From Ignavibacteria bacterium (GTDB lineage Bacteria > Bacteroidota > Ignavibacteria > Ignavibacteriales > Ignavibacteriaceae): a DNA stretch of 42,724 bases. Position 1 is the stretch's first letter. Every line of letters starts with the position of its first letter. Under the pieces are notes generated by a model. It was not told the origin of the DNA, did no database searches, and worked only from the letters and a program-made list of their open reading frames with translations. The position numbers were made by a program, and so were the translations under genes. The stretch is taken from assembly GCA_021286645.1 (NCBI GenBank), contig JAJTBZ010000084.1, forward strand, positions 1 through 42,724, in the 5' to 3' direction. Of the stretch, positions 10,367 through 13,757 are shown in pieces.

Positions 10367-11533
10367 ATGAAAACACGAAGTGTCTTTTGGTTTTTAATTT
10401 TCGGGGTACCGGTTATACTAACGGGTTGTTATACTCAGTACGCCAGTTATGATGATTATTATACAAAAAAACATGATCCGCGCGATCATATGTACACGCA
10501 ACGGCAGGAGGAACAACGCCAGGACGATCAGTACGCCGATCAACAGGATACGAACTATTCTGATCAGGAAAATGATCAGAATAACGATGCGTACTATACC
10601 GACAACGGCTCCAACCAGGTAAATTACTACTTCGGGGGCGGAAGTTTCCCTCATTATCGTCGTTATTTCAGATATTATGTACCCTCCTATGGTTTTAGTA
10701 TTTACTTAGGCAACTGTTTTGGTGACCCATGGTGGGACCCGTGGTTTGGATGGTATGACCCGACATTTCCAACTATCGTGTATGTACCTACATGGTATTA
10801 TGGCTACTCTCCGGTTTATTGGGGATATCACCACCACCACCATGATTATTACACTTCCGGTAAAGTATGGTATGACAATACTACCAGGTTGAGAAATAAT
10901 GGCGGAATTATGAGAAATGGCGGACAACCGCTGACATTTACGGGACGGGATCTTACCAATCTTCGAACTTTGAATATCCGTGACCGTAATGTTACTACAA
11001 TTGACCGGGGAAGAAGAACATCCATCGCGTCTACGGCTAATCCGTTCGTAACACGCGAAAGAATTGGCATTGCATCCCGCTCAGGTGATGTCCAATCCAG
11101 ACGTGACCGCGGAACCGCCGGTTCGATTGGAAGCAGATCCGGACGTGGAACTATTGACGCGAACCGTGGCGCTGACAGATCCCGGCACAATGATGGTCTG
11201 GACGGCCGCTTACGCGATCGGGAAAAAAATTCACGCGGCCAGGTATTTAGAGGCGATAGAAGCACCAATGGCCGACCACGGGAAACTGTTTCCCCAAGAG
11301 TGCCCTCTTCACGTGGTTACGACCGAAATGGTAATAAACGTGAAGAACGGAAGAAAGACGGGGCAACACAAAATCAGAGATATGCCCCGGCACCGGAAAG
11401 AAGAAACTCGGCACCAAGTTATTCGCCCGCGCCTCGGCAGCAGGAACGCTCGTCTGCACCCCGTAGCAGTGATGGTGGCAGCAGACAGTCTTCAGGCAAT
11501 AGTGGCGGTCAATCACGTAACAGAGAAAGGTAG
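10367..11533 (+). CDS. Lipoprotein with aromatic/His core and Arg/Ser-rich tail
   Basis: 388 aa, not assigned to a known family. A lipoprotein signal ends in LTGC at about residue 21, followed by YTQYASYDDYY. Residues 30-85 are rich in Gln, Asp and Asn. Residues 85-165 are dominated by Tyr, Trp, Phe, Gly and Pro (DPWWDPWFGWYDP) and include five consecutive His in WGYHHHHHDYY, a possible metal site. Residues 210-388 are low-complexity, rich in Arg, Ser, Gly and Asn, strongly basic and probably disordered. It begins a three-gene operon with a second GCYT lipoprotein and a FadL-like barrel, so it probably works at the outer membrane. The function is unknown. Confidence 0.85.
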   Translation: MKTRSVFWFLIFGVPVILTGCYTQYASYDDYYTKKHDPRDHMYTQRQEEQRQDDQYADQQDTNYSDQENDQNNDAYYTDNGSNQVNYYFGGGSFPHYRRYFRYYVPSYGFSIYLGNCFGDPWWDPWFGWYDPTFPTIVYVPTWYYGYSPVYWGYHHHHHDYYTSGKVWYDNTTRLRNNGGIMRNGGQPLTFTGRDLTNLRTLNIRDRNVTTIDRGRRTSIASTANPFVTRERIGIASRSGDVQSRRDRGTAGSIGSRSGRGTIDANRGADRSRHNDGLDGRLRDREKNSRGQVFRGDRSTNGRPRETVSPRVPSSRGYDRNGNKREERKKDGATQNQRYAPAPERRNSAPSYSPAPRQQERSSAPRSSDGGSRQSSGNSGGQSRNRER

Positions 11534-11539
11534 TTGGTC

Positions 11540-12193
11540 ATGAGAAGTACATTTGCCCTATCAATATTAACAGTAGCATTTCTTACATTCCTGCAAGGTT
11601 GCTATACTGTTGTAGATTTGGAATCCAGTCAACCTGCAGAAAAAACTTCTACAAATGAAGCTTATACCGATTATTATGGTAACCCTTGGTGGTGGGAGCC
11701 TATGCCCTCACCCGATCCAGTTCCGGCACCACCGCCTCGGCCAATTCCTTACCCCGGGCCCATCGGTGATCCCCCTAATTTACCAGGAGGGATAATAGTT
11801 GTAAAACCATCGAAAGATCCCGAGCGTCCTCGCCCTGTCGATGGAGGCCTACCCCGCAATGGGGGAACGCCCTCTTCTCCAACGCCAATAATTATTACAA
11901 TTCCCGGAGTTGGTGTACCATCAGCCGGGACAGGAGGCAGCGGTAAATCGGGAAATCCGGCACCGAAAGGTGATATAAAATCTACTACAGAGTTAAAGTC
12001 ACCTCCGGTTTATAAGCCGATCGACCGTCCAAACAGAAACGACTCTGAAACACCTGCACCAACAAATTCCGGGCAGGAGAACAAGAGTCAGCAACAAGTG
12101 CAGCAATCTGCACCGCAGCAATCAGCGCCTCAGCAATCTGCTCCGGCAAATTCAGGCAGCGATTCGCAAAACAATAAAGACAGAAGGAGATAA
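11540..12193 (+). CDS. Proline-rich lipoprotein related to the preceding gene
   Basis: 217 aa. The lipobox LQGC at about residue 22 is followed by YTVVDL, echoing the GCYT start of the previous protein, and YTDYYGNPWWWEP echoes its aromatic WW motif. Residues 55-100 are Pro-rich (MPSPDPVPAPPPRPIPYPGP) and the C-terminus has three near-identical QQSAP repeats followed by SGSDSQNNKDRRR. It looks like an extended, mostly disordered surface lipoprotein. ATG at 11540, nine bases after AAAGG, is preferred over an in-frame TTG at 11534. Only six bases separate it from the upstream stop. Confidence 0.83.
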   Translation: MRSTFALSILTVAFLTFLQGCYTVVDLESSQPAEKTSTNEAYTDYYGNPWWWEPMPSPDPVPAPPPRPIPYPGPIGDPPNLPGGIIVVKPSKDPERPRPVDGGLPRNGGTPSSPTPIIITIPGVGVPSAGTGGSGKSGNPAPKGDIKSTTELKSPPVYKPIDRPNRNDSETPAPTNSGQENKSQQQVQQSAPQQSAPQQSAPANSGSDSQNNKDRRR

Positions 12194-12200
12194 TTTTTTT

Positions 12201-13637
12201 ATGATACGTTATATCTGCATTATTACACTATGCGCAATTACATTATTTGGGCAAACCACTTACGATGCAGCCTTGTTAGCCAACAGAGGATATTTTGCGA
12301 ATGCCCGTGCCCTGGGTATGGGGAACGCATTTACCGGTGTCTCTGACGATGCATCAGCTATGTTCTTTAATCCGGCAGGATTGGGACTTGTAAAGCGCTT
12401 CGAGGTAACCGGAGGTTTTGATTATTTCAGGTACACGAATCAATCGGAATTTTACGGCACATCCACCACCGATAAATCCAACAAGCTTTCCTTAAATCAG
12501 GCGGCTTTCGTTATTCCTATCCCGACTCTGAGAGGCAGCCTTGTTTTTGGATTAGCTTATGATTGCACTCCACAATTTACCGCGGTTCAGCATGTAAAAG
12601 GCCAGAATTCCAGTACAACTTCCTATACACAGGCTCTTCTGGCTTTCGGCAATCAATATGACCAATTGATGGTTCGCGATATTGGTCTGGCAGACAATAA
12701 AAATGTAACAGGCCTTAAAGGCAATCTGCTCCAGGAAGCCACTTATTTAAATAGCGGTGCATTACACAATTGGACATTCTCCGGCGCGATGGAAGTTGCG
12801 CCAAATCTGTTCGTCGGTGGAAATCTTGTTTTGCAAAGCGGCTCATTCAAGCGTACTTCCAATATTTCTGAGAATGATGCCCTTGGAATTTATACCAATA
12901 CATTACTCGCTTCAAATGATCCGGGTAGTGATGGTTTTATTCAGGCAACATATACACCGTACTACGAGTGGGATATTACCGGTATTTATGGCAAATTCGG
13001 GTTATTGTATCAGGTGCCCAAAACAGCCCGATTCGGCTTTACCGTTGAAACCCCGAAGTATTTCTCAATTGAGGAATCGGATTACTTTGATGCTGTTACA
13101 TATTGGAAATACAATAATCCTCTTTATCTGCAATCACCATCAGATTATACTTATAAATATAAGTTTGATGTAACCATTCCCGTAAGAGCAACAATTGCGG
13201 CATCGGGTACATTCGCAGGCTTAACCGCAAGTGGTGAAATTACATGGATGGATTATTCCGGTATCGAATTCAGCAGTCCAGACGGTGATTACAATTATAC
13301 TTCACGGAACCAGCAAATAAAGAACGAACTTCAGGAAGTATTTGACTATAATCTGGGATTCGAATATACCGTTCCGAACTCGAATATGCGGGTACGTGCC
13401 GGTTATTTCACACAAAACACCCCATATAAAAATATGCCTTCCGGTTATGATAAGCAGTACCTTACATTCGGTGTCGGGTTCCTGTTTGAACGCTCAATTA
13501 CACTTGATATTGCTTACCTGCATGGATGGTGGAAAGAGCATGGAGATATGTATACGTATAATTACCAACCGGTAGCTCGTTTTACGAGTGATATTACCGT
13601 AACGAATGTTGCATTTTCTATGCATTACCGATTCTAA
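12201..13637 (+). CDS. Outer-membrane beta-barrel protein, OmpP1/FadL-like
   Basis: 478 aa. A signal peptide covers about residues 1-18 (cleavage near LFGQ). The mature N-terminus has the conserved stretch ARALGMGNAFTGVSDDASA followed by FFNPAGLG, typical of FadL/OmpP1 barrels and their UPF0164 and PorV-like relatives. The rest alternates hydrophobic and polar residues with many Tyr/Trp girdle positions and ends in Phe (MHYRF), as barrels do. FadL proteins move hydrophobic compounds; PorV is a T9SS shuttle. The sequence alone does not decide between them. It is third in the operon, seven bases after the second lipoprotein, so the three proteins may form one outer-membrane assembly. Confidence 0.85.
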   Translation: MIRYICIITLCAITLFGQTTYDAALLANRGYFANARALGMGNAFTGVSDDASAMFFNPAGLGLVKRFEVTGGFDYFRYTNQSEFYGTSTTDKSNKLSLNQAAFVIPIPTLRGSLVFGLAYDCTPQFTAVQHVKGQNSSTTSYTQALLAFGNQYDQLMVRDIGLADNKNVTGLKGNLLQEATYLNSGALHNWTFSGAMEVAPNLFVGGNLVLQSGSFKRTSNISENDALGIYTNTLLASNDPGSDGFIQATYTPYYEWDITGIYGKFGLLYQVPKTARFGFTVETPKYFSIEESDYFDAVTYWKYNNPLYLQSPSDYTYKYKFDVTIPVRATIAASGTFAGLTASGEITWMDYSGIEFSSPDGDYNYTSRNQQIKNELQEVFDYNLGFEYTVPNSNMRVRAGYFTQNTPYKNMPSGYDKQYLTFGVGFLFERSITLDIAYLHGWWKEHGDMYTYNYQPVARFTSDITVTNVAFSMHYRF

Positions 13638-13645
13638 AAAATTGG

Positions 13646-13728
13646 GACTGCTTTACAATTAAAACTTGTGGGGCTTTGCCGTTGAGTACACGGCAGAGCC
13701 CCGGAAGAGATACCGTGGTAAAGCAGTC
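13646..13728. repeat. Nested inverted repeat (two perfect stems)
   Basis: An outer 11-base stem (GACTGCTTTAC at 13646-13656, GTAAAGCAGTC at 13718-13728) encloses an inner 13-base stem (GGGGCTTTGCCGT at 13670-13682, ACGGCAGAGCCCC at 13690-13702) with a seven-base loop; the inner stem has one G-T wobble. No U-run follows directly on the plus strand, though CAATTTTTTAG follows the structure on the minus strand. It may terminate the barrel operon, but two nested perfect stems are more than a terminator needs. A REP/MITE-like element or a structured RNA is possible. Confidence 0.8.
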
Positions 13729-13757
13729 TCTGTTAAATTTCCTCCAATCCTTCCTAC

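Follow-up and report, generated by a model that had tools for sequence, protein, structure and literature searches.

A set of three closely packed genes lies in the 42,724-nucleotide stretch of an Ignavibacteria bacterium (contig JAJTBZ010000084.1) that we analysed and refer to as the window: two genes for predicted lipoproteins, lipo1 and lipo2, and directly behind them one for a FadL-fold outer-membrane barrel (Table 1). The explanation that we favour, held tentatively and with somewhat less than even confidence, is that these genes represent a phylum-wide outer-membrane module consisting of the barrel and, encoded directly 5' of it, one or two lipoproteins dedicated to it, in which the barrel would act as a platform holding docked lipo1. 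What underlies this proposal is the adjacency of the genes, the FadL fold and conserved N-terminal tail of the barrel, the Cys-Tyr-Thr-Gln end of lipo1 and a lipo1 body predicted to be a disordered polyampholyte. An earlier note on this DNA had described three genes separated by six to seven bases, and its coordinates, lengths and gaps hold on re-reading the sequence, with 6 nt between lipo1 and lipo2 and 7 nt between lipo2 and the barrel gene.

The order of lipoprotein and barrel genes is retained over considerable evolutionary distances. The barrel matches all 59 relatives at the level of the order, strongly (E below 1e-38) in 57 of them; the loci of the two genomes without a strong barrel, G006 and G036, were left out. 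At 56 of these 57 order-level loci, a lipoprotein open reading frame (ORF) ends between -90 and +40 nt from the barrel start, and two or more such ORFs lie upstream at 39 of the 57. The single exception (G037) has a barrel read in two frames, unread bases and a GCYTQ-bearing ORF further upstream. In a wider sample of the phylum, the barrel was found at E <= 1e-30 in 164 of 296 genomes. We hand-picked 60 class- and phylum-level loci from the 137 barrel-matching genomes outside the order, and a predicted lipoprotein lies directly 5' of the barrel at 50 of them, versus 2 of 118 control ORFs. The control comprised every other ORF of at least 300 amino acids on both strands and is lenient, because some of these ORFs are surely not genes. 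Among the 10 misses, one contig (G281) ends just upstream of the barrel, and in five others (G326, G156, G304, G312 and G225) an upstream ORF looks by eye as if it had a lipobox; the 50 of 60 obtained by the rule is therefore a lower count. The genes flanking the lipoprotein-barrel set vary between lineages. The adjacency on which the earlier note had staked its proposal is thus kept at order, class and phylum level, and the lipoproteins do not mostly occur alone.

The barrel passes the Pfam model PF03349 (Toluene_X/FadL) with 36 bits against a gathering cut-off of 29.7, and its AlphaFold2 (AF2) model adopts the FadL fold with a predicted local distance difference test (pLDDT) score of 91.4 and a predicted template modelling (pTM) score of 0.87, which upholds its initial description as FadL-like. 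With this model, Foldseek ranks BtBamG first (9hiv_F, 1.6e-18), a Pseudomonas aeruginosa FadL homologue second (3dwo, 2.7e-18), and FjBamG and PgBamG third and fourth. Profile searches place TbuX, PorV and a FadL homologue closest among solved structures, and a phylum-wide profile adds PgBamG (5e-5); the single barrel sequence retrieved nothing from the PDB sequences at E <= 10. The order-level profile was built from 56 of 59 barrels, omitting the two-frame, N-containing barrel of G037 and two second copies. In a tree of 41 barrels, the window type and its class- and phylum-level relatives form a clade (support 100/99) apart from BamG, PorV-like and FadL/TodX proteins; the rows were chosen by hand, and several outer ones are long, with exact positions unsure. 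The second barrel copies (L117, G014:C47; L118, G002:C1) cluster together in this tree. The closest named barrels come from metagenome bins labelled Ignavibacteriaceae, Ignavibacteria, Melioribacteraceae or Bacteroidetes, and the window genome itself measures 3.7 Mb.

The mature barrel begins with a tail longer than that of FadL. VIA-align pairs the three BamG chains with the model from residue 21 onwards, FadL and TodX chains from residues 24-34 (mostly 27-30), and PorV chains from residues 23-25. Across 13 phylum-wide sequences, column identity is 0.62 in the tail (residues 18-28), 0.61-0.62 over residues 18-60 and 0.42-0.44 in the barrel body.

Lipo1 is conserved at its lipidated end. All 42 aligned lipo1 sequences have GCYT, with Gln as the next residue in at least 90% of them. 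When the codon pattern for GCYTQ was searched in the 59 genomes, 51 of its 68 matches fell at lipoprotein-barrel loci (in 49 genomes) and 17 elsewhere, and the reversed control pattern gave 10 matches; the motif is therefore not a general lipoprotein signal, and from sequence comparison the conserved Cys-Tyr-Thr-Gln end of lipo1 appears largely specific to this locus. The remainder of the protein is predicted to be disordered, with an acidic N-terminal part, a Tyr/Trp-rich middle and an Arg-rich tail: in the AF2 model (mean pLDDT 44.5) the signal helix alone is formed. Residues 166-388 of the window protein carry a net charge of +26 and 20% Arg. This polarity is general, the N-terminal part being net negative and the C-terminal part net positive in 49 of 49 lipo1-size ORFs, and the last 100 residues are net positive in all 49 upstream ORFs listed for class- and phylum-level loci. 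The earlier note had also pointed to five consecutive His residues and suggested metal binding. The run is present in the sequence, and HHH or longer occurs in only 2 of the 49 lipo1-size ORFs, the window's included; a metal site is accordingly unsupported, and we dropped this candidate. Ordinary sequence searches recover lipo1 poorly. The single sequence matches 26 of 59 relatives, and a profile built from 42 of the 49 lipo1-size ORFs matches 58 of 59, the matches in G003 and G036 being weak and not at a clear lipo1. Against PDB sequences, the profile gave two matches (0.00065 and 0.44) over tail positions, which we take as low-complexity. A few of its other matches, on other contigs and over tail regions, likewise look low-complexity.

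The second lipoprotein has a different tail, with 20% Pro and 7% Gln over residues 61-217, so that the contrast drawn at the outset between an Arg-rich, basic lipo1 tail and a Pro/Gln-rich lipo2 tail is borne out by composition. In 33 aligned lipo2 sequences, W51 is invariant and P49 and W50 are nearly so (the PWW motif). The profile built from these 33 of the 51 shorter ORFs matches 39 of 59 relatives, and the single sequence only 2 of 59. Both window lipoproteins have Gly-Cys-Tyr-Thr at the lipidation site and a Trp-Trp pair, as had been observed, and had been read as marks of diverged paralogues. Profile-profile alignment of lipo1 with lipo2 covers 29 columns (probability 98.9), all within the signal peptide and lipobox: the N-termini align, and homology of the bodies is not supported. 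The lipo1 profile touches some lipo2 genes (best 1.7e-8), and the bodies share composition. A loosely defined RNNDGxR-like motif of the relatives, found in 43 of 49 lipo1-size and 38 of 51 shorter ORFs, is absent from the window's own lipo1 and lipo2. No Pfam or NCBIfam family scored above its curated cut-off for the window lipoproteins or for nine relatives' lipoproteins, and neither matched a known family with a role unrelated to the barrel.

The closest known counterpart is the BamG-BamH pair. Two papers describe the FadL-fold protein BamG of Bacteroidota as essential and as the carrier of the lipoprotein BamH, the conserved N-terminus of which is wedged into BamG; BamG has an N-terminal tail (PMC12578637, PMC12611786), and BamH has been likened to a DNRLRE-annotated fold (PMC12611786). 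This architecture made BamG the first hypothesis for the window barrel, as the Foldseek ranking also suggested, and it was ruled out by a separate BamG in the genome and by the tree. The window genome's BamG candidate (C28:4075-5232) matches NCBIfam NF053685 with 224 bits over positions 6-395 of 397, below a cut-off of 250 that is passed in 25 of 59 genomes, and it matches 9n2d_B, 9hjm_F and 9hiv_F at 1.5e-15 to 3.2e-13. Of the other 58 relatives, 56 have a strong best BamG match (E 2e-54 or lower) that is not at the window-type locus; there was none in G006 and a weak one in G036, and the match in G011 is split over two contig pieces. The window barrel gave no match to the NCBIfam BamG model at E <= 10, in a program that filters out most matches with E above 0.1. 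Scores of 65-85 bits were obtained with this model for three related barrels, and 44 of 56 barrels match it at E <= 0.001.

At the bamG locus of the window genome (L272:2822-5241 on C28), a lipoprotein gene precedes the barrel gene and overlaps it by one base. Its product matches DNRLRE with 32.3 bits against a cut-off of 34, and its counterparts in two relatives reach 55.6 and 36.7 bits. Because a search of PDB sequences missed the BamH chains and returned one unrelated match at 0.42, we only infer that this lipoprotein is BamH, from its position, the DNRLRE score just under cut-off and its acidic start. DUF4270, another guess for BamH, has no match in the window genome. BamH was rejected as the identity of lipo1 or lipo2, as neither shows a DNRLRE domain of carbohydrate-binding type, NCBIfam giving no family for either at E <= 10. 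The earlier view that no complex of this composition is known therefore stands in part: the three-gene set appears undescribed in the literature searched, which left out preprints and most subscription journals, and its order of a lipoprotein followed by a FadL-fold barrel has a precedent in the same genome; the set is a novel form of an arrangement already known.

The window set and BamH-BamG (PDB 9HIV, 9HJM, 9N2D; NF053685) share a FadL-fold barrel with a lipoprotein gene directly 5', a conserved lipidated N-terminus of the lipoprotein and near-universal presence in the order; the conserved N-terminal tail of the window barrel, longer than in FadL, resembles that of BamG in where the chains begin to align. 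They differ in that family model, tree and uniqueness all speak against the window barrel being BamG, and in that lipo1 and lipo2 show no DNRLRE domain and lack the acidic signal, lipo1 being predicted disordered. On the model of BamG-BamH, lipo1 probably docks on the barrel through its conserved lipidated end, which may pack on the barrel wall beside the N-terminal tail, much as the BamH N-terminus is wedged into BamG. The barrel would then be a membrane platform that keeps the long, disordered aromatic and Arg-rich tail of lipo1, together with lipo2, at the outer membrane, and during envelope assembly the lipo1 tail could contact a partner that is acidic or aromatic. With less certainty, we suggest that the extended N-terminal tail might plug the lateral opening, so that the barrel would be mainly a scaffold and not a transporter.

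Several observations weigh against this platform model. Second barrel copies in G014 and G002 have no upstream lipoprotein; the class- and phylum-level loci of G275, G201, G181 and G074 gave no lipoprotein by the rule; and in at least one lineage (G102) the ORF 5' of the barrel is secreted but shows no lipobox. Fold scores do not tell BamG from FadL, since FadL, TodX and BamG are tied at VIA-align Z of 30-34, and PorV chains likewise align early in the barrel. Furthermore, the BamH-K-type acidic export signal (at least two acidic residues within six residues of the lipidated Cys) is missing from both lipoproteins: lipo1 has none and lipo2 one, and in 48 of the 49 lipo1-size ORFs the first six residues include no more than one. 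Surface exposure is consequently not supported by this Bacteroides-type rule, which may or may not hold in the class Ignavibacteria.

A barrel that transports a hydrophobic compound in the manner of FadL, gated or fed by the lipoproteins, is an unlikely alternative. The window barrel shares fold, an above-cut-off Pfam score and the invariant NPA hatch motif with FadL, TodX and TbuX (PF03349), and TbuX, TodX and FadL homologues are among its closest structures by profile and fold. A classical FadL of the window genome (C28:57785; L259:1474-4206), which matches Escherichia coli FadL chains at 5e-20 and weaker, also adjoins a lipoprotein gene. This lipoprotein differs from those of the window set in lying downstream, and a motif at its start suggests that it is SGNH-hydrolase-like. 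The Fjoh_4941-Fjoh_4940 pair of Flavobacterium johnsoniae is a comparable FadL-fold barrel with a lipoprotein (PMC12045153). Counting the bamG locus and the window set, lipoprotein genes thus adjoin FadL-fold barrel genes at no fewer than three places in the window genome. However, its two FadL/TodX-like proteins match transporters far better than the window barrel does. The latter, unlike FadL, TodX and TbuX, has a longer conserved N-terminal tail, dedicated upstream lipoproteins and a clade of its own, and its tail and near-universal presence in the order are more BamG-like.

We consider it quite unlikely that the barrel is a PorV-like component serving type IX secretion and that the lipoproteins are its partners at the surface or in the periplasm. 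PorV and PorQ (NF033709, NF033710) belong to the same FadL superfamily and share an N-terminal ARALGMGNA-type motif with the window barrel, and with the NCBIfam PorV_fam model 51 of 56 barrels score at E <= 0.001. SprA_N is also found in 163 of 164 barrel-positive phylum genomes, and in the genomes read the barrel lies about 6-8 kb from sprA in families f21, f41 and f42 (L277, L278, L279) and about 25 kb from it in one genome each of f30 and f35; unrelated genes intervene, so barrel and sprA do not form an operon. Yet every PorV match of the window barrel stays under its curated cut-off (58.1 bits versus 90 with NF033709), the window barrel is larger and sits elsewhere in the tree, and PorV fits the fold less well (Z 27.6-27.7) than FadL or BamG. 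Co-occurrence with SprA is confounded by shared ancestry, and at a threshold of E <= 1e-30 the barrel is missing from 65 genomes in which SprA_N is present.

It is improbable, in our estimate, that the genes adjoin through shared regulation alone and that the lipoproteins are independent disordered envelope tethers: the lipoprotein bodies do diverge fast and are predicted disordered, and second barrel copies occur without them, but retention of the pair across the phylum amid different flanking genes is unusual for unrelated functions. An identity of the barrel with the ignavibacterial BamG, and of the lipoproteins with subunits of the barrel-assembly machine (BAM), is highly improbable and, as orthology, refuted, for despite the top Foldseek rank of BtBamG, the matches of many related barrels to the BamG model and the extended N-terminus, a separate candidate exists in nearly every genome, the window barrel itself goes unmatched and the tree separates the two; an accessory role at BAM would survive this refutation.

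Two 2025 papers show that the barrel-assembly machine of Bacteroidota has been remodelled around a FadL-fold barrel and a lipoprotein. The window locus adds a further barrel clade with conserved lipoproteins of its own, the adjacency of which is kept over class and phylum distances and which are unnamed in the family libraries searched. If the set takes part in envelope assembly, it would be a widespread component of the phylum that has perhaps been overlooked, since ordinary homology searches cope poorly with lipoproteins as disordered as these. As a long shot, one might envisage a platform for outer-membrane assembly or surface organisation, the third of its kind and undescribed, in much of Bacteroidota, in which the barrel would anchor a sticker-type polyampholyte lipoprotein (Tyr/Trp-rich acidic part, Arg-rich tail) that gathers clients or forms a membrane-tethered condensate, accompanied in several lineages by a second lipoprotein that binds haem through CxxCH.

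This haem-type CxxCH motif is absent from the window lipo2 and occurs in an upstream lipoprotein in 7 of 51 shorter order-level ORFs and at 9 of 60 class- and phylum-level loci; an HP dipeptide precedes it in 13 of the 16 CxxCH-bearing proteins. A single-haem lipoprotein adjoining a FadL-fold barrel would be unusual. The loci concerned belong to scattered lineages (L082, L085, L092, L094, L095, L097, L100, L202, L205, L206, L219-L222, L224 and L225).

Table 1. Features of the lipoprotein-barrel locus in the window
Feature	Position	Strand	Description
lipo1	10367..11533	+	388 aa; predicted outer-membrane lipoprotein; ORF, lipobox LTGC
Gly-Cys-Tyr-Thr-Gln codons, lipo1 lipidation site	10424..10438	+	sole match of the codon pattern in the window genome
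Five-His run of lipo1	10829..10843	+	present in sequence; not conserved
lipo2	11540..12193 (from ATG)	+	217 aa; predicted lipoprotein; Pro/Gln-rich tail, PWW motif
FadL-fold outer-membrane barrel	12201..13637	+	478 aa; Pfam, AF2, Foldseek, VIA-align, tree
N-terminal tail of mature barrel, residues 18-28	12252..12284	+	longer than in FadL; Q18 and D22 invariant (13 phylum-wide sequences)
Asn-Pro-Ala motif of FadL hatch (N57 P58 A59)	12369..12377	+	invariant in 56 aligned barrels
Long nested hairpin	13644..13731	+	between barrel and next gene; -51.3 kcal/mol, z -7.0

The set is preceded by a gene that we take to be alpha/beta-hydrolase-like and followed by a GTPase gene that we read as rsgA. The hairpin behind the barrel gene is a possible end of the transcription unit; it has no Rfam match within the window, the terminator scan did not call it, and consensus scans for promoters and terminators gave nothing in excess of shuffled sequence. 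A predicted outer-membrane protein of about 257 amino acids (QGTAG...LIDMPTAG), which is not in the window and has a weak OMP_b-brl match under cut-off, is encoded just 5' of lipo1 in many relatives (for example L066:1858-2634).

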